A stretch of DNA of 64,000 nucleotides, taken from Pleodorina starrii (taxonomy: Eukaryota > Chlorophyta > Chlorophyceae > Chlamydomonadales > Volvocaceae). Shown one piece after another: positions 5,384 through 63,393 of the stretch; the first letter of the stretch is position 1, and every line of letters starts with the position of its first letter. The stretch is taken from assembly GCA_030267565.1 (NCBI GenBank), contig BRXU01000001.1, positions 1,488,001 to 1,552,000 of the forward strand. Direction: 5' to 3'. The position numbers were made by a program, and so were the translations under genes. Below the pieces are notes generated by a model. The model had not been told where the DNA came from. It made no database searches and saw nothing but the letters and a program-made list of their open reading frames with translations.

Positions 5384-8300
5384 CACAGGCGTTAATCGTG
5401 GCCAGGCGCAGCAAGGGGCCAGAATCCGCATAGGGCCCCTGAACGCCGCAGCTGGAGCGAGTGCGGGCCACACCTCGCCGCGCGGTGCCGCCGCCGCTGC
5501 CGCCGCCGCCGCCTCCGGCCAGGCTGTAGCGCCCATAGGCAGCAGCGCCTATGTCGGTGTTGCAGGCTCCAGCGTCGCCGTCGCCAATGCGGCCGTCGGC
5601 AGTGGTGCTGTCGATGACGGAGGCGGGGGCGGCGGCGGCGGCGGCGCCGCCGCCGCCGCCAAAGAGGCTGACGAAACTGTCCTCTCGCATGATGCCGATG
5701 CTGACGGAGCTGCCCGCGCGGGATCGTACGGCAGCGGCGGCGGCGTAGTTGGCGGCGGCAGCCGCAACCGCCGCTGCCGCAGCGGCGCGCGGCGTCAGGT
5801 TACCGCTACGGTGAGATGCGAGGGCGGCGGCGGCGGCGGCAGCGGCGGTGCCGCGGCTGCCGTACGCGAGGTGGACGCCGCGCAGGCGCGGCACTGCCGC
5901 GGCGGCGGACGGTCCGGCCAGGGCGCTGACGCTGATGCCGCCGCCGACGCCGCCGCCGACGCCGCCGGCGCCGCCCGGCCTGGCAACACGCGAATCGAGG
6001 CTGAGCAGCCTTTGTTGGGTTTGAGGTCAGGGCGGGGCGGGACAGGGGCAGCAGTGGGGCGCGAATAGGTTGGGGTGCGGATAGGCCGGCGCTTTTGCTC
6101 CACCCTCCTCCACTCTCTCCCAAGGGGGAACCCCCCCCCTTTGCTCTTGCTCTGTGGGCCCCGCCACGCATGAAGGACGACAAGGCAAGACCAGGCACGC
6201 GCCCCCCGCCGCCCTCCCCCCTCGCATCCCTCCCTCTCCCGCCTTTCCCGCTGCTTCACTTGCCTGGCCGCCTCGTGAGCCACCGGTGCGCTCGCCTGAC
6301 GCGACAGAGGCAGCAGCCGCGTCCGCGTCCCCGGCGCCTCCCCGGCGGCGGCGGCGCCCGCGTCCCGACAGCCCCCGCCTCCAACAGAGCCCCGCTGCGC
6401 CAGAGCCTGAGCCAGGGCCACGGCCGACACGGGCGCCGGGACCCGCGGCAACTGGCCCTGGCCCTGGCCCTGGTCCTGGTGCTGTGCCCAGCCCCGGCCC
6501 CCGCCGGCTTGATGAAGAAGCGGCGCCGGGCCGACGGCGGTATTGGTATTGGCTGGCTTTGCCGCAGGACGGGTCGCCGCCACCCCCTCCGCAGCAGTAC
6601 CAGCAGCAGTACCAGCAGTACCCGCAGGAGCAGCGGGCATGGTTCCGGAGCCGGCCGCGGCAGCGGTGCCGGCGCCGAGGCGGATCCCGGGGTCCGATGA
6701 GGGGACCGGGGCCAGCTCACGAATCGGGATCTGCTGCTGCTTCCTCTGCTCACTCTGCCGCTGGGGAGGTGCTGGTGGTGGCGGCGGTGTCGCAAAGGCG
6801 CCGCCGCCGCCGCCAGCGCCGACGCCGCCAGCGCCGCCGCCGCCGGCGCCGCCGACTTGGCTATTACCGCCTTGCGAGGTGACGATGGTGGTGGCTGTGG
6901 TGGAGAGCCGCATTAGATGGATGAGACCGGCGTAACCGTCGCTGCTCAAGGGGGCCGCGCCACCGCCACCGCCGCCGCCGCCGTCACCGTCACCGTTGCC
7001 GCAGCTCTCAACTCGCGCCCGGTCCGCACCGACCAACGGTGTGAACGGCGACGTCGTCACCGCCGGCGACGGGCCGTTGCGAACACCACCGCCGCCGCCG
7101 CCGTCCCCGCCCCAGGCGACGTCCGCCGCGGCGGATGTGGCCGCGGCGGCGGCGGCGGCAGCGGCGGCGGCGGCGGCCAAAGGGCCAGAGGCCAAGCACC
7201 TGGGGCGACTGGCCGACAGCGGGGTCGATTGCACAGCTGCGGCGCAATGGCGCGCAATGACGGCGGCGGCGAGCGCCGCTGACAGCTCGACGCCGTCACC
7301 GCCGTTGACATCATTGACGTCGGCGTGCCGCGCGCGGGGCGGCGGCGGCGGCGCTGCCGTTGGCGCCGCCGCGCCGGCGCTGAGCAGCACCACATTGCTT
7401 CCTGAAGTGGTGCAAGCGCCGTCGACCTCCAGAAGCGGCGGCAGCGGCAAGCCCAGATGGGCGGCGCAGAATGACGGCATGTCATACACTGCCGTGTACT
7501 GCACCTGCGCTGGCGGAGGCGGCGCCTGTGGCGGCGGCGGCTCCACCGCCGCCGCGGGCCCCGCCGCCAGCAGCTCACGCGGCGGCGACGGCGGCGGTGA
7601 CGGCGGCCGCGACTTCTCCTGCCCTTTCCCGCCATGCGATGAAGTGGTCCGGCAGGAGCTCGGCGGCAAGGCAGTGGGCCGCGGGTCAGTGAGAGCGCCC
7701 CGCGGGTCAGTGGCGATGACCCGTGGGTCAATGATAGTGAACCCTGGCTCAGTGACGGGCCCGGCGGCGGCGGCGGCAGCGGCCCATTCGCCGCCAGCTG
7801 ACGCAACGCCCTCCGCCGGGCTGGTAACCGCCGTGGATCTCCCCACTGCCGTCGCTGCCGTCGGCGGCGGTGACGGCGACGGCGGCGGCAAGCCCGACGG
7901 CGGTGCACCGAGGGCCGTCAAGCCGCATTGAAGGGCATTCCCAGGTATGGGGTCGGGACGACACTCCAGGGCATCCGTCTGTCGCGGCGGCGGCGGCAGC
8001 GGCGACGGCAGCAGTTTCTGTGGCGGCGTCGTTTCGTCAACCTTCCTCTGAAACCGGTTTTCCGTCGCCGTCATCGAAAGCCGGCGAGGCAGGGCACGCG
8101 GCGGCACATCATGTCCGCCGGGGCCGCCCCCGCCGCCCCCGCCGCCGACGCCGCCGACGCCGCCGACGCCGCCACCCGTAACCGCCCCCATCGAGGTGCT
8201 GCGCGGGGGCTCCGTCATCGTGTAAGTCAAGCCTCCGCGTGCAAATCTAGATCCTGACCCAGATCCAGATCCAAAATCGGATCCAGATCCAGATCCCGAA

Positions 8301-50155: not shown

Positions 50156-53100
50156 TCAGCGCCAGGAGGCTGACTCCAGGGGCAGCCCCGGCTTGCCCCC
50201 CACCTCCGCCTCCTTGCCCAGCGCCTCCGCCTGCGCCTCCTGGAAGTGAGTCACCGGCACCTTGCCCAGACCAGCGGCCTGCGGAGGGCGAGAGGGCGGA
50301 GGGCGGAGAACGTGGCAACAGCTGTGCGACGTGGGTCCGCCTCTCCTCCCCGGCAGCCCGCCGTGGCCTATGTCCCGAGTTCCTCTCCACACGGCCAACC
50401 AACTAGCCACACACCCCTTCCCCCGCCTCCCAGCTCCCACACACACAGGCGCACACACACACGCATACGCACACGCTCACACACACGGTCACACACACAC
50501 GCCCTCATACACAAAAATTCACGCACACGCTCTGACACACAAGCTCTCACACACACGCGCCCTTACGCCCTCGCATGCCTACCACGGTGGCGCTGTCCAG
50601 TACGGCACGCGTGGCGTCGTACAGCTGCTTGCAGGTCTCCGCGTCCTTGGCGGCCCAGTTGACCGGCTCGCGAGCTACCGTGTTGAAACCGCCCCACCCG
50701 AACAGCTGCAGACCGAACGCATTGGGACCCAGGTACGTGCCGCCGCGGCCTGGGGGGGGGGTGGAGGGGTGGTGGGAGGGTAGGGTTTGAAGGGGTGGTG
50801 GAACGCAATACTGCCCAATAGGGGCCCAGCTCAATAGCGGTGGTGGCGGACAACGGTGTCGGTGTCGGTAGCGACGGTGATGGCGACACCGCGCGGCGGC
50901 GGCGGCGACATGACACAAAACGCGGTGGACGACTCAGCGCAAAGCGTGCAGAGCAGAGCAGCGCAGTGCAGCGCAGCGTAGCGCGGCCGCACGGCAGCAG
51001 CTCCGCCCCCCCCGGGTATTTTCTTTTTACACCCACCCACCCACCCACCCTGCATCTTGGGCTCTGTGGCAGCGAACAGCGGCGCCAGTGCTCCCCTTAG
51101 TGCTGATTGGCCGTGTAGTCGGCTGTTGATGAGGGCGGAGAGGGACACCAGGTAGCTCCGGTCGGACTTGGCCTCACCGGGGGTGGACACGATGCCTGGG
51201 GGTGGGGGTGGGTGGGTGGGTGGGGTGGGGGCGGGTGGGTGAGGTGGGGGTGGGTGGGTGGCTGTAAGGCTGTACTTCCTCGTGTATGGCACTACCGACT
51301 TGCCGTGCTCCTTTCAACCTCCTGGCACCAGTCCGTTTTGACGCCTGCGTGCTGAGTTGCTCCCTCTCTCTCCCCCTCCCTCTCTCTCTCTCCCCCTCGA
51401 GGGCCCAAAGCCCCATTTCCGAGTGCCCCTTCCCTTCTCTCCCTCTCTCCCTCCCTCCCCCTCAAGCTACTGACCCCAAGGCTCCGCCCCCCAACCCCAC
51501 CCCCTCCTCCCCTCCTCCCGCCCCCACCCGGGTGCACGGGGAACACGTCGACGCCGATTCCCCTCAGGCGGCGGTTGAGGTCGCGGGACACCATCAGCAG
51601 GTACAGCTTGGAGGCGGCGTAGGGGGTCAGTCCGGAACTGGACATGTCCACTCCGCTGTGTGTGTGGGTGGGTGTGGAGGGGGGATGGGTGGGTTGGGGG
51701 ATGGGTGGGTGTGAATGGGTGGGTGTGAATGAGTGGGTGTGAATGAGTGGGTGTGAATGAGTGGGTGTGAATGAATGGGTGTGAATGAGTGGGTGTGAAT
51801 GAGTGAATGAGTGAATTTGGGGTGTGGGTGGGGATGGGTGGGTGGGGGGCAGCGGGGCGAGGCGGCCATAGGGGGTGCGCGGCAGCGGGGTAATCAAGAC
51901 GAGGCAGCAGCAGCGAAGGAGTGGAGGCGATGTTGGCGACATTGGCAACATTAGGGGGGGCGGGGGCCGGGGAGCGGCAGGGAGGTATTTCGGTAGGCAC
52001 GAACGGGCGAGAGGCAGCGCCAGCACCAGCAGAGGTTGGGGCGAGGGTTTTAGGGTTTGCTTATGGCGACGTGGGTTGGGTTATAGGGTTTTGGGTTTTG
52101 GGTCGAGATGAAGCAGCGTGTCACTCGCATACGGTGTTTACACACCCACCCACCAAACCAACCACCCGCCCGCCCGCCCGCCTAGCCACCCGCACGCCGC
52201 CCCTTCGCCCACCCGCAAGCTAACCAGCCAGCCAGTCACCCAGCCAGTCACCCAGCCAGTCACCCAGCCAGTCACCCAGCTACCCAGTCACCTAGTCAGT
52301 CAGCCAGCCAGTAAGCCAGCCAGCCAGTAAGCCAGCCAGCCAATAGACCAGTCACCCAGTCAGTCACCCAGCTACCCAGTCACCTAGTCAGTCAGCCAGC
52401 CAGTCAATTAGTCAGTCGGTCACATCTCACCGCAGATCGTCCCAGTGCACCTTTCCGAACATCTCTCCGAATGAGGCCACGTTGACGATGCGGGCGGGGG
52501 CGCTGGCCCTCAGGCGGGGCAGCAGCAGCAGGGTCAGGTACAGCGGGCCGTAGAAGTTGGTGGCCAGGGTGCTGCGGTTGGGTGGTTGGCGGTTAGCCGT
52601 TGTGGGTTGGGGGTTGGATTGGAGGGCGGTTGATAGGTAAGGGGAAGGAGAGGACGGGTATTGGGGGGCAGGTAAGGACCGGGGTTGGCACGGGCGAAGC
52701 GGCGCGGGCGGGGTCCACATACACATCAAGACCGTGAAAAGAGGAGAGGGAGAAGAGAGGGGAGAGGCAGTGTCGCTTAGCGCCCACGTGACCCTATCCT
52801 GCGATCGGCCCCTATGTTCAAAAGCCCCTCGCAGCGATCGCCTCCCTATCGGACGGCGCGCCCGTTAGGGGACGCTGCACCATCCCCGCACTGCGCTGGA
52901 TCGTGACCCACGGGTCGGTCCCACACTTAAATCCTGCGCCACCACGACGATGCCTTAAGGCGCCGGAAAACGGCGGCTGCGACCACCGTGACCCACGGGT
53001 CGGTCCCACGGTCAATCCGGTGTGGACAGGCGCGCGGAGAGGTCGCTGACCCGTTCGGCCGCTGACCCTGGCTGTCCCCTACAGAAGTGCGGTAGTAAAC

Positions 53101-55287
53101 GAAATTATCAGAGTCACAGTCCGGCAGCAAAGGCAAGACTCACAGTTCGAATCCTTCCTCAGTCACTGTGAAGGGCCCCGGCGCGAGCACCCCGGCGTTG
53201 TTGATGAGCACGTGGAGCGGGGAGCCCGTGGCCAGCACGTCATCGGCCAGCTTGCGGACTGACCTGCCGATGGGGGGAGGGGGAGAAGGGCTGTGAGTCA
53301 ATATCAAACCACACCGAAGAGCGAGGTGCCCGCCGGGGAGTGGATACGGGTGGCACTGGGTGGGCCGTGACGTGAAGCCCGTGACTACTGTTGTCCACAG
53401 TTCCGTACCGGGAGCCGAAACCCGCCTCCCGCCCCCCCCCCCGCCCCCAGCCCACGTGCTGCGTGCTCCGCTTGGTCAGACCCAGCTTGGACACGGCGGG
53501 ATGGACAAGAACGGTGGGCAATCGAACCCCCGCGACCGTAAAGGCGACCAAAGCAGAGCATAGACGCACCAACTCGATCAATCCGGGACGTCTGAGGCCG
53601 CACGAAGGGCCGCCCAGCCCCACTCCGCGAGCACTCGGTTGCTCGCCCGCTCACCCAGGCTGGGATGGACAGAGTGTGGGATTTCTTTCTTTCAAGAATA
53701 AATTCTCCACATCGGAGGGTGACGCCTTATCCATTAGGCCACTCGGCCACATTGCCATGATCGACCAAGATGGGACTCGAACCCACAATCTTCACCTTCT
53801 TCCGGGAGAACTACTATGTCTCAGTAAGACATGCAAACAATAAAATAAAAATGCAATATGTAAGGTGCGTAGCTCCTTCAGAGCCTCACGCACTCACGCA
53901 GTGGCCGGTACGCGCCCGCAAACACACACACCCACTTGAGTGATGCCATGTCGGCCTGCATCAGCGTCAGTTTGGCGAAACTGAACTCGGACTTGATGTC
54001 CTCAATGGCCCTGGAGCGGGGGTGGAGGCAGGGGCCGGGGGGAAAAGAAATGGATCCAGGGAGCTCCAGGGGGGGGAGGAAACGGAGCGAGGGCGGATGG
54101 GGACGGACACCCGCCACCCGTCAGGCGGGAGCCGTCGTCGCACCGAAAAAAACACGCCGAAATTCGCAAGCCCCAAGCCGGGTCTTGAGGTGCGCGGCGC
54201 AGGAAGCCGGTGGCCCCACTCCCCCTCCCCGGTTCCCCTCCCTCTCCCAGCGCCGGCTTCGCACTCACCACCTCCCCCTGCCCTCGTCCCCTCTCTTCCC
54301 CCTCCCCCGTTTGTCCACTTATATTTCCTTTCAGATCTCATCCTCGCTCACTTCTTGCCCTTGTCGATGTCCCGAACCACCATGATGACGTGCGCGTTGT
54401 TGCGAGCGAGCAGGCGGGTCGTCTGGTAGCCGATGCCGCTGTTGGCGCCCGTGACCAACACTACCTGGGGGGCAGGCGGGGCAGGCGGGCGGGGCAGGCG
54501 GGTATGCGGCGGGCATGCGCGGTCGGGGACCCCGCGGTCACGCACTGAGCCCAGTGGAAGGAAGCGTTGTGCAGGGGGGCGCGGGGTGCGGGACCGTACC
54601 TTGCCGGCAGCCGCTGAGCTGGCTACGGTTGTACGGTAGCTGCAGCTGACAGGGCTCTCCAGGGAGGGCAGCCGTATGCAGGGAGGGTGTCCTTTTTTGT
54701 GTGTATGGGGGGGGAGGGATGGCTGCACCCACCACCCACCACCCGCCACCGCCAACCCCAACCCCAAACCCCAAACCCGTGGGCAACGCATGCACGCGCA
54801 CACGCACTCTGCCGTCCCCAGCGGCCCGAATAGGAAGGTTGTGGGGGGAGAAGGATGTGTGAGAGAGAAAAAGGTAGGGGAGGCGCTGCTATTTGTTTGC
54901 CCTGGTGGCCTCACACGCCCCATCCAAGTCCCGGGGGCGGCTCGACAGCCAATGCCACGTCGCCGCACTCTTACGCCTCTCGTAAGCCCGTGTGTCGCAT
55001 CCTCACCGCACCGACCAAACCGACCACACCAACCAAACCGACCAAACCGACCCCCGGACCGCGCACCGCCGACTGACCTTTCCGAACATGTCCGGCATGT
55101 CGCGGTCGGGGTCCCATCCGGGAAGCACCTGCCGCACGAAGCCCGGCAGCAGCGACAGCAGCCCCTCGCCGCTACCCGGCGACACGAGCGCCTGCGCCAC
55201 CCGCACCGGCAGCTGCAGCAGGGAGGCCCCCGCGGAGGGCTTGGGCGCGAGCGTGAAGGAGGCGGGCGGCGCGGCGGCGGTGGCCAT
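50156..55287 (-). CDS. Short-chain dehydrogenase/reductase (SDR)
   Basis: Exons: 55287-55078, 54464-54352, 54010-53936, 53263-53144, 52571-52431, 51655-51528, 51195-51049, 50749-50583, 50278-50156; 407 aa, all phases consistent. It is a classical/extended SDR of the retinol dehydrogenase, WWOX and protochlorophyllide reductase group. Visible: the NAD(P)-binding VVLVTGANSGIGYQTTRLLA (TGxxxGIG at 75-82), NNAG at 154-157, Ser206 in NVASF, and YAASK with Tyr232 and Lys236. The 70-residue N-terminus is Ala/Leu-rich and ends in DMPDMFGK before the fold; it may be an organelle-targeting region. Substrate not predictable. The C-terminal 100 residues (GGTYLGPNAFGLQLFGWGGF) are longer than a minimal SDR. 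Intron 3 contains a permuted tRNA gene on the same strand; intron 5 has minisatellites and telomere-like words. Confidence 0.92.
51690..51820. repeat. Minisatellite of GGGTGTGAATGA units in SDR intron 5
   Basis: About eight imperfect copies of a 16-18 bp unit containing GTGGGTGTGAATGA, just upstream of the exon 6 acceptor. Confidence 0.85.
51884..51945 (+). repeat. Degenerate copy of the dispersed intronic repeat in SDR intron 5
   Basis: GGGGTAATCAAGACGAGGCA followed by GCAGCAGCGAAGGAGTGGAG; antisense to the gene and more diverged than the best copies. Confidence 0.4.
52046..52102. repeat. Telomere-like TTTTAGGG words in SDR intron 5
   Basis: GGGTTTTAGGGTTTG at 52046 and TATAGGGTTTTGGGTTTTGG from 52083. 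Confidence 0.5.
52220..52425. repeat. CAGCCAGTCACC tandem repeat at the start of SDR intron 5
   Basis: Imperfect 8- and 12-bp units (CAGCCAGT, CAGCCAGTCACC) fill about 200 bp and end only a few bases from the exon 5 donor at 52430. Confidence 0.85.
53500..53580 (-). pseudogene. tRNA-like sequence or SINE head
   Basis: On the minus strand an A-box-like GATCGAGTTGGTGCG (from 53579) and a B-box-like GGTTCGATTGCC (53528-53517) lie at tRNA-like spacing, with GGTCGC just before the T arm. The T stem has mismatches at both ends and no matching acceptor 5' strand is found, so this is not an intact tRNA. A tRNA pseudogene or SINE fragment fits best. Confidence 0.35.
53712..53797 (-). tRNA. Circularly permuted tRNA-Arg(CCG)
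   Basis: The 3' half (tRNA positions 38-73; 53797-53762) comes first on the minus strand, then 13 nt (53761-53749), then the 5' half (positions 1-37; 53748-53712). The rejoined molecule is exactly 73 nt. Stems: acceptor GGCCGAG with CTTGGTC (7 of 7, two G-U), D stem GCCT with AGGC, anticodon stem TCACC with GGTGA, T stem GTGGG with CCCAT (one G-U). Anticodon loop CTCCGAA gives anticodon CCG; T loop TTCGAGT; discriminator G; no encoded CCA. The flanks GGAGAA (53708-53703) and TTCTCC (53810-53805) pair, TCCG of the loop pairs with CGGA (53804-53801), and the bulges contain the 37/38 junction: a bulge-helix-bulge for splicing endonuclease. An A/T-rich tract (53832-53865) lies upstream as a possible external promoter. 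It lies in SDR intron 3. No second copy of either half is nearby that would make a conventional gene. Confidence 0.88.
53832..53865 (-). promoter_or_regulatory. A/T-rich, TATA-like tract upstream of the permuted tRNA
   Basis: In minus orientation the tract contains GCATTTTTATTTTATTGTTT, which is striking in this GC-rich window. It starts some 20 nt upstream of the outer stem of the predicted pre-tRNA. Permuted tRNA genes have the A and B boxes in reversed order, so an external TATA-like element would make sense. Functional role inferred. Confidence 0.4.
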
Positions 55288-60026: not shown

Positions 60027-62523
60027 TCACCGACGCACCGCCAGACTGCGGCTGCCACCGGGCTGGTAGAATGCCCGGTCGAAGGTGTTTCCGTCCGGGC
60101 CCCAGGGGCAGCCCAGTTGGCGCAGGCAGCGCACCGTCACCATGTCGCCGTTGCGGCCAGCCAGCCGGTAGGGCTCGCCGGCGACCTGCGTCGGTGGGTG
60201 CCGTTGTTGATGGCGGGGAGGGAGGAAGGGAGGAAGGGAGGGAGGGAGGAAGGAAGGGGGAGCAGGGGAGGGTCTCTCGTCGGGCGGCCTGCACGTGTTC
60301 TTGGTGCGGTTGGGAGGTGATGCGTTGGTGAAGTGCCATGCCATGCCGCGCCGGGTGATGATGGTGGTGGCGGTGGTGGTAATGGTGGTGGTAATGGTGG
60401 TGGAGGGAGTGTGTTGCCAGGCGTGCGAGGGCGGGGAGCTCCCGGGCTGCCCAATCTGGTTACCTGACACCCAGGCATCAGGCATCAGGGGAGACAAAAA
60501 GCAAGCTGTAAAGGCACTGCACGGCGCTGGTGATGGGGGTGATGATGGGGGGCAGCGGCTTATGAGGTGCCCGGCGCCGCTTGCAAGGTGGGACCGATGA
60601 TGAACAGATGAAGCGGCGACTGGCTTGCCGGACGTCGCCCCCCGAGGCGTTGTGTTGGGAGTCATACGGTGGTCGATGCGTTGGTGGTGGGTGCAGCAGT
60701 GCAGCAGGAGCCCGCAAAGAGGCAGCGCGCTCCTCTTTAGGCAACACGAGGCTCCCATGAAGCAGCCGCCAGAGATGTACGCATTGCACCGCACCGCACC
60801 GCACTGCACCGCCGCTCGACTGCTGACCTTGACCAAGGAACAATGCCGCCCTTTGCGCCCCTGCGCCCCATGCCGAGCAGCGACCTGACTGATCGCCGCA
60901 CCCGATGAGATAAACCCAACCCAACCCAACCCAACCCAACCCAAACCGACCCAAATTAACCCGAGTCAAGCCAAGCCACTCACTCACCCCCGTGGGGCAG
61001 CCCTCTTCCACCAGCCACTCCAGGAACGCCGGGCTGCCGCCGCACCGCACAGCCGCCTCAAAGCTGCGCTCATCCCAGCCGCATCCCCGCTCCCGCAGCC
61101 ACGCCATCAGCTCGCAGCTGCCCGACTCCGCCGCGGCCGCCGTCAGCCTTTCGTCCATCACCGTCCACAGCGCCTCCTCGCCGTCCGCCGGCGCCGCCGC
61201 GCGCCCCTCCAGCCACTGCAGCACGTGCAGGCGGCCGGCCCGCGCAGCAGCCCACGCCGCGGACGTCCCAAGCTCCCAGCCCAGCGCCGCCAGCTCCGAC
61301 AAGACCACCACGTCGCCCGCCTCCGCCGCCACATCGGGCGCAGCGGCCGTGGCGCCGGGCAGTTCGTCCGGCCACGCCTGCCACAGGTACCGCACGAGCG
61401 GCAGATTCGCGGCGCGGACGGAGTCGCGGAGCAGCAGGCGGACGGCGGGCTCCAGCGCGTCCGGCGGCAGCCACTCCAGCAGCAGCTGCACTCGCTCGAG
61501 GCGGTCGTCGTCGTCGTCCTGCTGCTGCTGGTGCTGCTGCTGGTGCTGCTGCTGCTGGCGCTGCTGGCCGCTGGTGACCAGCCTCTTCGTGATGTCCTGG
61601 GTCACGTCGTCCGGGTCCAGGACGGCGCCCTGCTCGCGCAGCCACTGCACCTTGGCCCGCCAGTCGGGGGTGGGGCTCGCCAGGGCTTCCGCCAGGGCGC
61701 CGTCCAGGGCCTCCGGCGCGTCGGCCCGCAGCAGCCGGAGGGAGTGCAGGAAGGCGTGCAGCCGCTGCAGCGCAGCCAGGCCCAGGCCGTGGGCTGCTGC
61801 CGCGAGGAGCGGCACTGGGGAGGCGAAGAGCCGGGTGGGCGGCGGCTCGGGCACCTTGGGGCGGATCTGCGGCGGCTCCAGCAGCCAGTCGAAGAGGGCC
61901 TGGTGGCCGCCGCGGGCGCATGAGATGAGGGCGCTCCAGTCGAAGTTGATGCCCTCGGCGGCGAGACCCTGGCAGAGCGCCCGCTGGCCGGCGCCGGCTG
62001 CCGCCGCCCAGGCGGCGTGTTGCGCGACACGGCGGTGGCTGGGGTGGCGCTCCTGCTGCAGCAGCCAGAGCACGGTGGGCAGGTGGCCAGCGCGGGCGGC
62101 CGCTGACACCGCGGTCCGGCCGCGAGGGCAAAACCTGGCCAGGAGCCACTGGCAGGTGTGGAGGTGGCCGCCCACGGCTGCGGCGTCAAACACCTCTTCC
62201 GTGAGGGGACATCCCGACGCGTCGAGGGCGACCTTTAGGTTTGCCAGGCAGCCGCTGCGGGCCGTCAGGACCAGGAGCTGCCGCCGCTGCTTGAGAGTCA
62301 GGTTGTGCAGCGCCTCCTCCGGGCGGCTCCAGTACCAGACGAAGAAATGGCACGGCACCGGCTCCGACAGATGGACGGCTGGCTGGGCCGGGAAGAGCTT
62401 CGCAGCCGCCTTGTTGATAAGGCGAAATGTGCAAGCGATTTCGGCTGGCGGTAGGCAGTCGGCGATTCGCTTTATGAGGTCTGACGACAGGTCGTCCCAT
62501 TTCGTTTCCGAAGGAGGGTCCAT
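60027..62523 (-). CDS. F-box / ankyrin-like repeat protein
   Basis: Exons: 62523-60988 and 60185-60027; 564 aa, phase 0 junction. The N-terminus WDDLSSDLIKRIADCLPPAE (residues 9-28), followed by ACTFRLINKAAAKLF, is an F-box-like motif, which would bind SKP1 in an SCF ubiquitin ligase. The rest is a solenoid of degenerate ankyrin-type repeats such as AAAVGGHLHTCQWLLARFCP, AAARAGHLPTVLWLLQQERH, AAWAAARAGRLHVLQWLEG, MAWLRERGCGWDERSFEAAV and, in exon 2, LAGRNGDMVTVRCLRQLGCP. Such F-box/ankyrin families are expanded in volvocine algae. A poly-Gln/Asp run lies at about residue 325-345. Target unknown. The reading frame looks truncated by a stop after SRSLAVRR (see the 3' extension). Confidence 0.8.
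60900..60960. repeat. CCAAC pentamer tract in the F-box intron
   Basis: Five to six copies of CCAAC followed by related units (ACCGACCC, AATTAACCCG), just inside the intron from the exon 1 donor at 60987. Confidence 0.8.
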
Positions 62524-63393
62524 GCTGCGTCGACTGATCTGCGCTTAAACTGTCAAATAGCATATCCTATACTTGGGGACACGCCTACTTCCTTCGACGG
62601 GGGCACGCTTACCGGTATCCTGGACGTTGGGCCTAGCGTATTGGCAAACGGGCCGCAACGTGCCGGCCGCGTATTTTCATTATGGCTGTTCGGAGAACAA
62701 ACCACCTACCCGATGGTGTGTGCCGCTGCTGCTGGCTGCTAAAAGCACCCGACCGAACCGCACCGAAACCACTTTGCACGACCGCTTCTTGTCTTAAGCT
62801 TCAACAAGCCTGGCACGACTTCAAAAATTGCTAAGAGATAACGCCATGTAAGAAATTCATGTCCTAAAATTAGAGATAGGAAGAGACACACGTAGTGACC
62901 AGATCACGAACCGAGGCTGCAAACTGGTGTCGCTACGAAACCACTCGTACGTGGGCCCGTTCTTTCTGTAGCTCCCACGCTGCAGATCCCCATGCCCTAT
63001 GCATAATAAGCCTTCTATCCACTCCAAGCGGTTAATAGCAACGCTTCTGTCAACAACATCAACGTGGTCGCTTCTTCACCCTTCACGTGTGTACACGCTA
63101 CCTCTTCAGCATGGCAGATTTTGCCTCGCCTGCCTCAAACTCTTCATTGCTTACCTGTTTCGTGGACTGCCATGAAGCTTCTAAGGCGAGTGGAGAGGTA
63201 TGTCAACCAGTTTTGGTTGACCGCGACAGTGCCTATTTGGAGTTGCTTACACTCGAGGCTTTTAGGATGTGCTGATATTCATATTACATCGTTATCTCAC
63301 TACACTGCCGTTAATCACGAGTGTTGCGGCCCTGATAGATAGCGGCGGCGAGCACCTGCTCGCTTCACAGTTGCCGTTAAGCGCTAATGTCGA
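62524..63393. promoter_or_regulatory. Divergent promoter region at the right end
   Basis: 870 bp between the F-box start and the ATG of the right-edge ORF, clearly richer in A/T than the rest of the window. No specific element identified. Confidence 0.4.

Follow-up and report, generated by a model that had tools for sequence, protein, structure and literature searches.

Circularly permuted tRNA-Arg(CCG) genes, most of them in one tandem array, in the volvocine alga Pleodorina starrii

We analysed a stretch of 64,000 nucleotides (nt) of Pleodorina starrii DNA (hereafter the window; contig BRXU01000001.1 of assembly GCA_030267565.1, positions 1,488,001 to 1,552,000), which holds on its minus strand a circularly permuted gene for tRNA-Arg(CCG). 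The 3' half of the tRNA, AGGTGAAGATTGTGGGTTCGAGTCCCATCTTGGTCG (53797-53762, minus strand; tRNA positions 38-73), comes first and comprises A38, the anticodon 3' strand, the variable loop, the T arm, the acceptor 3' strand and the discriminator G73 (53762..53797). It is followed by a 13-nt spacer, ATCATGGCAATGT (53749..53761, minus strand), connecting the 3' trailer with the 5' leader, and by the 5' half, GGCCGAGTGGCCTAATGGATAAGGCGTCACCCTCCGA (53748-53712, minus strand; positions 1-37), with the acceptor 5' strand, the D arm, the anticodon stem and CTCCGA, which includes the anticodon CCG and A37 (53712..53748). Both halves were delimited by reading the sequence and with ARAGORN. In the native order ARAGORN recognises no tRNA in the window, and Rfam at gathering scores gave zero matches across it. 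Joined at 37/38, the halves form a 73-mer that ARAGORN identifies as tRNA-Arg(ccg) and that is computed to fold into a full cloverleaf (-25.2 kcal/mol). The observation of a permuted tRNA-Arg(CCG) gene is therefore real, and the corresponding reading in the initial annotation is supported: the 3' half ahead of the 5' half with 13 nt between them on the minus strand, the perfect 73-nt tRNA with four paired stems obtained by joining at 37/38, and the arginine identity with anticodon CCG all agree with direct reading, ARAGORN and the fold. The source had been taken for a Chlamydomonas/Volvox-type alga, and P. starrii is indeed volvocine.

The gene is not a single occurrence. Searching the 136-Mb P. 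starrii assembly (contigs are labelled C1, C2, C13 and so on below, the window copy being the C1 copy) with the joined 73-mer gave 54 half-length matches, which make up 27 permuted loci and zero colinear ones; in 27/27 loci the 3' half lies upstream of the 5' half on the same strand. Besides the window copy there is a single copy on C28, and 25 copies stand in tandem at C30:1098591-1149500, where the units are mostly ~1,250 bp long, two of the gaps are larger, and a conventional tRNA-Ile(AAT) detected by ARAGORN follows every permuted gene. Both halves are identical to those of the window copy at C28 and in 16 of the 25 C30 copies, and the remaining nine differ at 1 or 2 bases; this recurrence of one permuted 73-base sequence excludes chance. 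The spacers measure 13, 14 and 26 nt at C1, C28 and C30, respectively, against a published range of 1-74 bp for permuted genes (PMC3978253), and by eye neither spacers nor flanks show visible similarity among the three classes. Identical mature bases amid dissimilar spacers and flanks are most simply read as a sign of selection on the mature tRNA; gene conversion limited to the halves could possibly account for the shared 73 bases as well. A tRNA-derived short interspersed element (SINE), a concern of the initial annotation that prompted a check of copy dispersal, was rejected, as the copies found occupy three sites, including one tandem array, and similarity ends at the tRNA ends (by eye). 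An Arg(gcg) gene with a 2,235-nt intron reported by ARAGORN within the C30 array was taken as spurious. As for other isotypes, a Ser query found no permuted gene in the genome, and a query for Ser, initiator Met (iMet), Cys and Asn was swamped by an iMet-like array, with 40 of 78 candidates scored.

Both the base pairs and the variation within the array point to constraint on the permuted gene. In an alignment of four related sequences (the joined permuted tRNA, a conventional tRNA-Arg(CCG) gene on C13 minus its intron, one tRNA-Arg(ACG) and one tRNA-Arg(UCG), the last three being conventional-order tRNAs of this genome), 21/21 cloverleaf pairs are kept in all four tRNAs (84/84 cells), and 14 of the 21 are changed on both sides. 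Among the pairs linking the two halves, those changed on both sides number five of the seven in the acceptor stem and four of the five in the anticodon stem (nine in total). Within the C30 array (24 of the 25 copies, the last omitted; 96 overlapping control windows), the minor-base rate of the permuted gene with its junction flanks is 0.0053, against a control mean of 0.035 and minimum of 0.0077. It amounts to 0.0069 in the 3' half, 0.0032 in the spacer, 0.0034 in the 5' half and 0 in the 3' junction flank, to 0.0073 in the tRNA-Ile of the same units, and to 0.0230 between the two tRNAs and 0.0402 downstream. An earlier count over all 25 copies, gaps included, again placed the halves below their surroundings in variation.

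The sequences flanking the gene could form a bulge-helix-bulge (BHB) motif at the 37/38 junction. Based on the sequence and on counted pairs, the 5' junction flank (53798..53812, minus strand) consists of the outer-helix strand AGTTCTCC, the central strand CGGA and the bulge AGA before A38, and the 3' junction flank (53701..53711, minus strand) of TGT after A37 and then the outer-helix strand GGAGAATT. CGGA of the window copy can pair with U33-G36 (TCCG) over 4/4 base pairs. The six outer-flank pairs of the initial annotation stand, and the helix can reach 8 bp by adding one G-U and one A-U pair. Its AGA bulge stands too, and its TGT bulge is corrected: on the 5'-half side the bulge is A37 plus TGT, 4 nt, with the cut after A37. 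Possible pairing, central plus outer, is 4/4 + 8 bp at C1, 4/4 + 5 bp at C28 and 3/4 + 6 bp at C30. Among 400,000 random placements drawn from the window and five other stretches, with thresholds chosen after the loci had been seen, 0.15% combine 4/4 central pairs with an outer helix of at least 5 bp, and 1.3% combine at least 3/4 central pairs with such an outer helix. When the excised RNA of 3' half, spacer and 5' half is treated as a circle, the computed fold is a cloverleaf in the one copy tested of each class (C1, C28 and C30).

The window copy lies in a spliceosomal GT...AG intron of 672 nt (53935-53264, minus strand; boundaries set by eye on the exon match) of the gene PLESTB_000019600, a short-chain dehydrogenase (50159..55287, minus strand), which is on the same strand as the tRNA gene. 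The host gene was located by tblastn with the 407-amino-acid protein P0089, which maps onto the window exon by exon, and this mapping bears out the earlier placement of the tRNA gene in an intron. Upstream of the 3' half, an AT-rich stretch with TATA-like words (53811..53877, minus strand; 66% AT against 36% in the surrounding 10 kb) is a possible external promoter. The corresponding regions at C28 and C30 (one array copy measured) have 63% and 58% AT against 36% and 45% around them. Downstream, TTTT occurs at +25 in 25/25 C30 copies and at +27 at C28, and at +10 at the conventional C13 gene.

Considering these results, we propose that the locus is very probably a circularly permuted tRNA-Arg(CCG) gene, one of 27 found, whose transcript is predicted to mature via a circular RNA. 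The proposal draws on features evident at the level of sequence, namely the order of the halves, the cloverleaf, the 37/38 junction, the BHB-capable flanks, the shared mature bases and the low variation in the array. In the published algal pathway the splicing endonuclease cuts at the junction, the ends are ligated into a circle, the spacer is removed, with RNase P and tRNase Z as the possible enzymes, and CCA is added (PMC3978253). By analogy, the tRNA splicing endonuclease, a domain with two matches in the genome, would cut after A37 and before A38, a tRNA ligase would close the ends into a circle, and RNase P and tRNase Z would possibly remove the spacer; after addition of CCA, the product would read CGG, a codon that accounts for 19 of the 59 Arg codons in two window genes (914 codons). 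The C30 array and the C28 copy would be transcribed by RNA polymerase III (Pol III) from an external AT-rich promoter, with the T-stretch at +25 or +27. The window copy, having no such T-stretch, may be a weaker and weakly expressed Pol III gene, may be terminated at TTTATTCTT, or may be carried in the intron of the host pre-mRNA.

Several observations weigh against this proposal. The Arg-CCG 5'-half pattern matches exactly at 28 sites, of which 27 are the permuted loci and the last lies on C13 (147 matches in all; the exact ones are complete, those with one mismatch are only among the matches listed), and at the C13 site ARAGORN finds a tRNA-Arg(CCG) in conventional order with a 34-nt intron at 37/38, a single copy by DNA search. 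This match led us to reject the reading that no conventional gene exists. A genome search for such a gene had been one of the checks proposed by the initial annotation, and its outcome leaves the case weakened, not removed, at 27 permuted genes against one conventional one: since the C13 gene exists, the permuted genes are not the sole possible source of tRNA-Arg(CCG). Besides, five tandem tRNA-Arg(UCG) genes on C2 and one on C9 may also decode CGG through wobble. No further conventional tRNA-Arg(CCG) gene was found by relaxed patterns, which a gene with an unusual D arm could escape: matches numbered 34 with a D loop of 8 nt, one with 7 nt and three with 9 nt, and the 10 matches beyond the 27 permuted loci and C13 have no ARAGORN tRNA within the surrounding 350 bases. 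The search with the joined 73-mer and the DNA search with the C13 gene both relied on word matching, and each overlooked the family that the other found; neither is proof of absence by itself.

The computed folds add to these counterpoints. The minimum-energy fold of the linear window precursor contains the whole cloverleaf and the outer helix and lacks the central TCCG/CGGA helix that had been drawn for it and that is possible over 4/4 base pairs; the centroid holds 3/4 of its pairs. The C28 precursor forms the cloverleaf with a 7-bp outer helix in place of the central helix, the C30 linear precursor (one copy folded) favours a non-cloverleaf fold, and the C30 junction is relaxed, with 3/4 central pairs and 6 nt from A37 to the outer helix. 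Compared with shuffled sequences, the fold energies are ordinary (z -1.41 for C1, -0.54 for C28 and -0.50 for C30). With the central pairing possible yet left out of the minimum-energy folds, each locus could form the junction motif, which the energy model does not favour. The window copy meets its first TTTT only at +741, which is the main result against its being a Pol III gene in its own right. In the array, the 13-nt 5' junction flank is no better kept than the upstream sequence (0.0160, from one variable site, vs 0.0149), and the contrast with the control windows is owed mostly to the downstream region. Finally, the genome gave no match to the TFIIIC B-block domain (4 of 14 prokaryote controls matched) or to the tRNA ligase domain (no control matched), in six-frame, intron-blind searches that we hold uninformative.

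Other explanations were weighed as well. The one that concerns the window copy alone, namely that it is a relic within an intron and silent or almost silent, with the C30 array and C28 supplying the tRNA, is possible but doubtful. It fits the position of the first TTTT, far from the gene here and close at the other permuted loci and at C13. On the other hand, 73/73 mature bases are intact, the junction pairing is the longest of the three classes (8 bp + 4 bp), an AT-rich stretch lies upstream, and the spacer and flanks are unlike those of the other copies, so that the window copy is not their fresh duplicate. A variant of the proposal itself, in which the amplified permuted gene supplies most of the tRNA-Arg(CCG) beside the lone ancestral-type intron-containing gene, and the window copy is freed from an intron of an RNA polymerase II mRNA and then circularised, appears improbable.

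We regard it as very unlikely that all permuted loci are non-functional rearranged relics, CGG being read by the C13 tRNA and by wobble of tRNA-Arg(UCG). The one conventional intron-containing gene, the five tandem and one additional tRNA-Arg(UCG) genes, and the central junction helix not favoured in the folds speak for it, whereas the mature bases shared by three sites whose flanks differ, the lowered variation within the array, the junction helices possible at each site and the compensatory pairs linking the halves speak against. That the C30 genes are really conventional, each 5' half joining the 3' half of the next unit across an intron of ~1.15 kb, is scarcely credible: the order within a tandem array would by itself fit either arrangement, but the first element of the array is a 3' half and the last a 5' half, the single loci at C1 and C28 hold one of each half per 10-kb stretch, TTTT lies 25 nt past every 5' half, and an ARAGORN tRNA-Ile follows each of the 25 permuted genes.

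Returning to the permuted gene proposed here, its relation to the C13 gene suggests how it could have arisen. The two share the anticodon, the interruption at 37/38 and a CGGA able to pair with UCCG, which in the C13 gene belongs to the intron end, CGGAAAT before A38. They differ in that the C13 gene has conventional order, is single-copy, and shows stem differences that preserve pairing; it has G37 and C41 where the permuted form has A37 and U41. The C13 gene resembles the presumed ancestor, and the permuted genes may have originated by tandem duplication of a C13-like intron-containing gene and loss of the outer halves, followed by amplification of the array. As a permuted and an intron-containing gene with the same anticodon and junction occur together, this duplication-and-loss model is testable across sequenced volvocines. 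In practical terms, of the 28 genes found for the tRNA predicted to read CGG, a scan limited to colinear tRNA genes would overlook 27.

A green alga that invites comparison, Auxenochlorella, belongs to the class Trebouxiophyceae. Like Pleodorina, it has permuted tRNA genes (PMC12633428); both lie outside the prasinophytes, in different classes. A review had tallied 34 permuted genes, in C. merolae, four green algae (Ostreococcus, Micromonas), one nucleomorph and one crenarchaeon, with at most 11 per genome and the algae all single-celled, and, citing Maruyama et al. 2010, stated that Chlamydomonas reinhardtii is without permuted tRNA (PMC3978253); besides Auxenochlorella, another nucleomorph has been added since (PMC4494063). 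For Volvox carteri, 1,051 tRNA genes have been surveyed, 41% of them clustered, and the word 'permuted' is absent from the main text of the survey (PMC2888827). The type II (37/38) genes of the prasinophytes Ostreococcus and Micromonas and of the Bigelowiella nucleomorph have the same order of halves, the same junction and a short spacer like the genes described here; they also have a relaxed BHB, which the flanks in Pleodorina could form, and, for some, an AT-rich upstream region (via PMC3978253). In contrast, Pleodorina is a colonial volvocine with 27 copies, 25 of them in tandem and one in a spliceosomal intron. For the algal permuted genes reported in 2007, the circular-RNA route is the one proposed here, TATA-like sequences lie upstream and a T-stretch lies near most of them, while their junctions fall at several cloverleaf positions and those of Pleodorina at 37/38 (via PMC3978253). 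In the review's table, followed partway into the B. natans entries, the Arg anticodons are CCT and TCT and do not include CCG, the anticodon in Pleodorina (PMC3978253). The permuted kind is thus already known, and what sets the Pleodorina case apart is the tandem amplification and the coexisting intron-containing gene. In the literature reached, outside which most subscription journals lie, there is no report of permuted tRNA in volvocine algae and no precedent for the lineage, the anticodon or the tandem amplification; for Volvox and Pleodorina this does not settle the matter.

Permuted-looking tRNA genes were also noticed outside algae, in tRNA-rich viral, probably phage, contigs of IMG/VR, at 16 loci (L082, L084, L087, L090, L102, L107, L119, L129, L131, L132, L142, L145, L150, L166, L168 and L175; for example L082:6683-6730, minus strand, and L175:10253-10294, plus strand). 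The set consists of 27 pairs of a T arm followed by a D arm, with neither arm in an ARAGORN tRNA (28 before pairs at most 60 nt from a locus end were dropped). At least 6/7 acceptor and at least 4/5 T-stem pairs are formed in 22 of the 27, on 16 contigs, and 7/7 acceptor pairs in 19; for comparison, among pairs within two conventional tRNAs 18/457 reach at least six and 1/457 reaches seven, and among mixed pairs 11/52 reach at least six. Their junctions appear to fall within the anticodon loop or the variable loop. In six of the candidate loci, Rfam at gathering scores reports only ordinary tRNAs, and nothing evidently on permuted tRNA in phage appeared in the literature searched. L090 and L150 look like one gene, and by eye TACATG recurs ~20-30 nt before the T arm in L087, L090, L150 and L175, perhaps as part of a shared processing element.

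Long tandem tRNA arrays, in units of ~1.1-1.8 kb, occur in Pleodorina on C2 (6.12-6.29 Mb and 6.66-6.74 Mb), C3 (0-122 kb) and C36 (434-516 kb) as well as on C30, and contain Arg(ACG)-like (one copy read), Lys(CTT), Trp/Glu, initiator-Met-like (matches only) and Ile/permuted Arg genes. ARAGORN further reports a tRNA-Thr(tgt) with a 29-nt intron at C28:299868-299983 (minus strand; L059) and on C3 (L047:4922-5038 and 7040-7156), and the C28 sequence seems to carry two T-arm-like stretches. Elsewhere in the window, an ankyrin-repeat gene lies at 60481-62544 (minus strand); over 75% of its length, the open reading frame matches PLESTB_000019800 with 100% identity, and the protein belongs to a family represented in Pleodorina, Volvox and Gonium.

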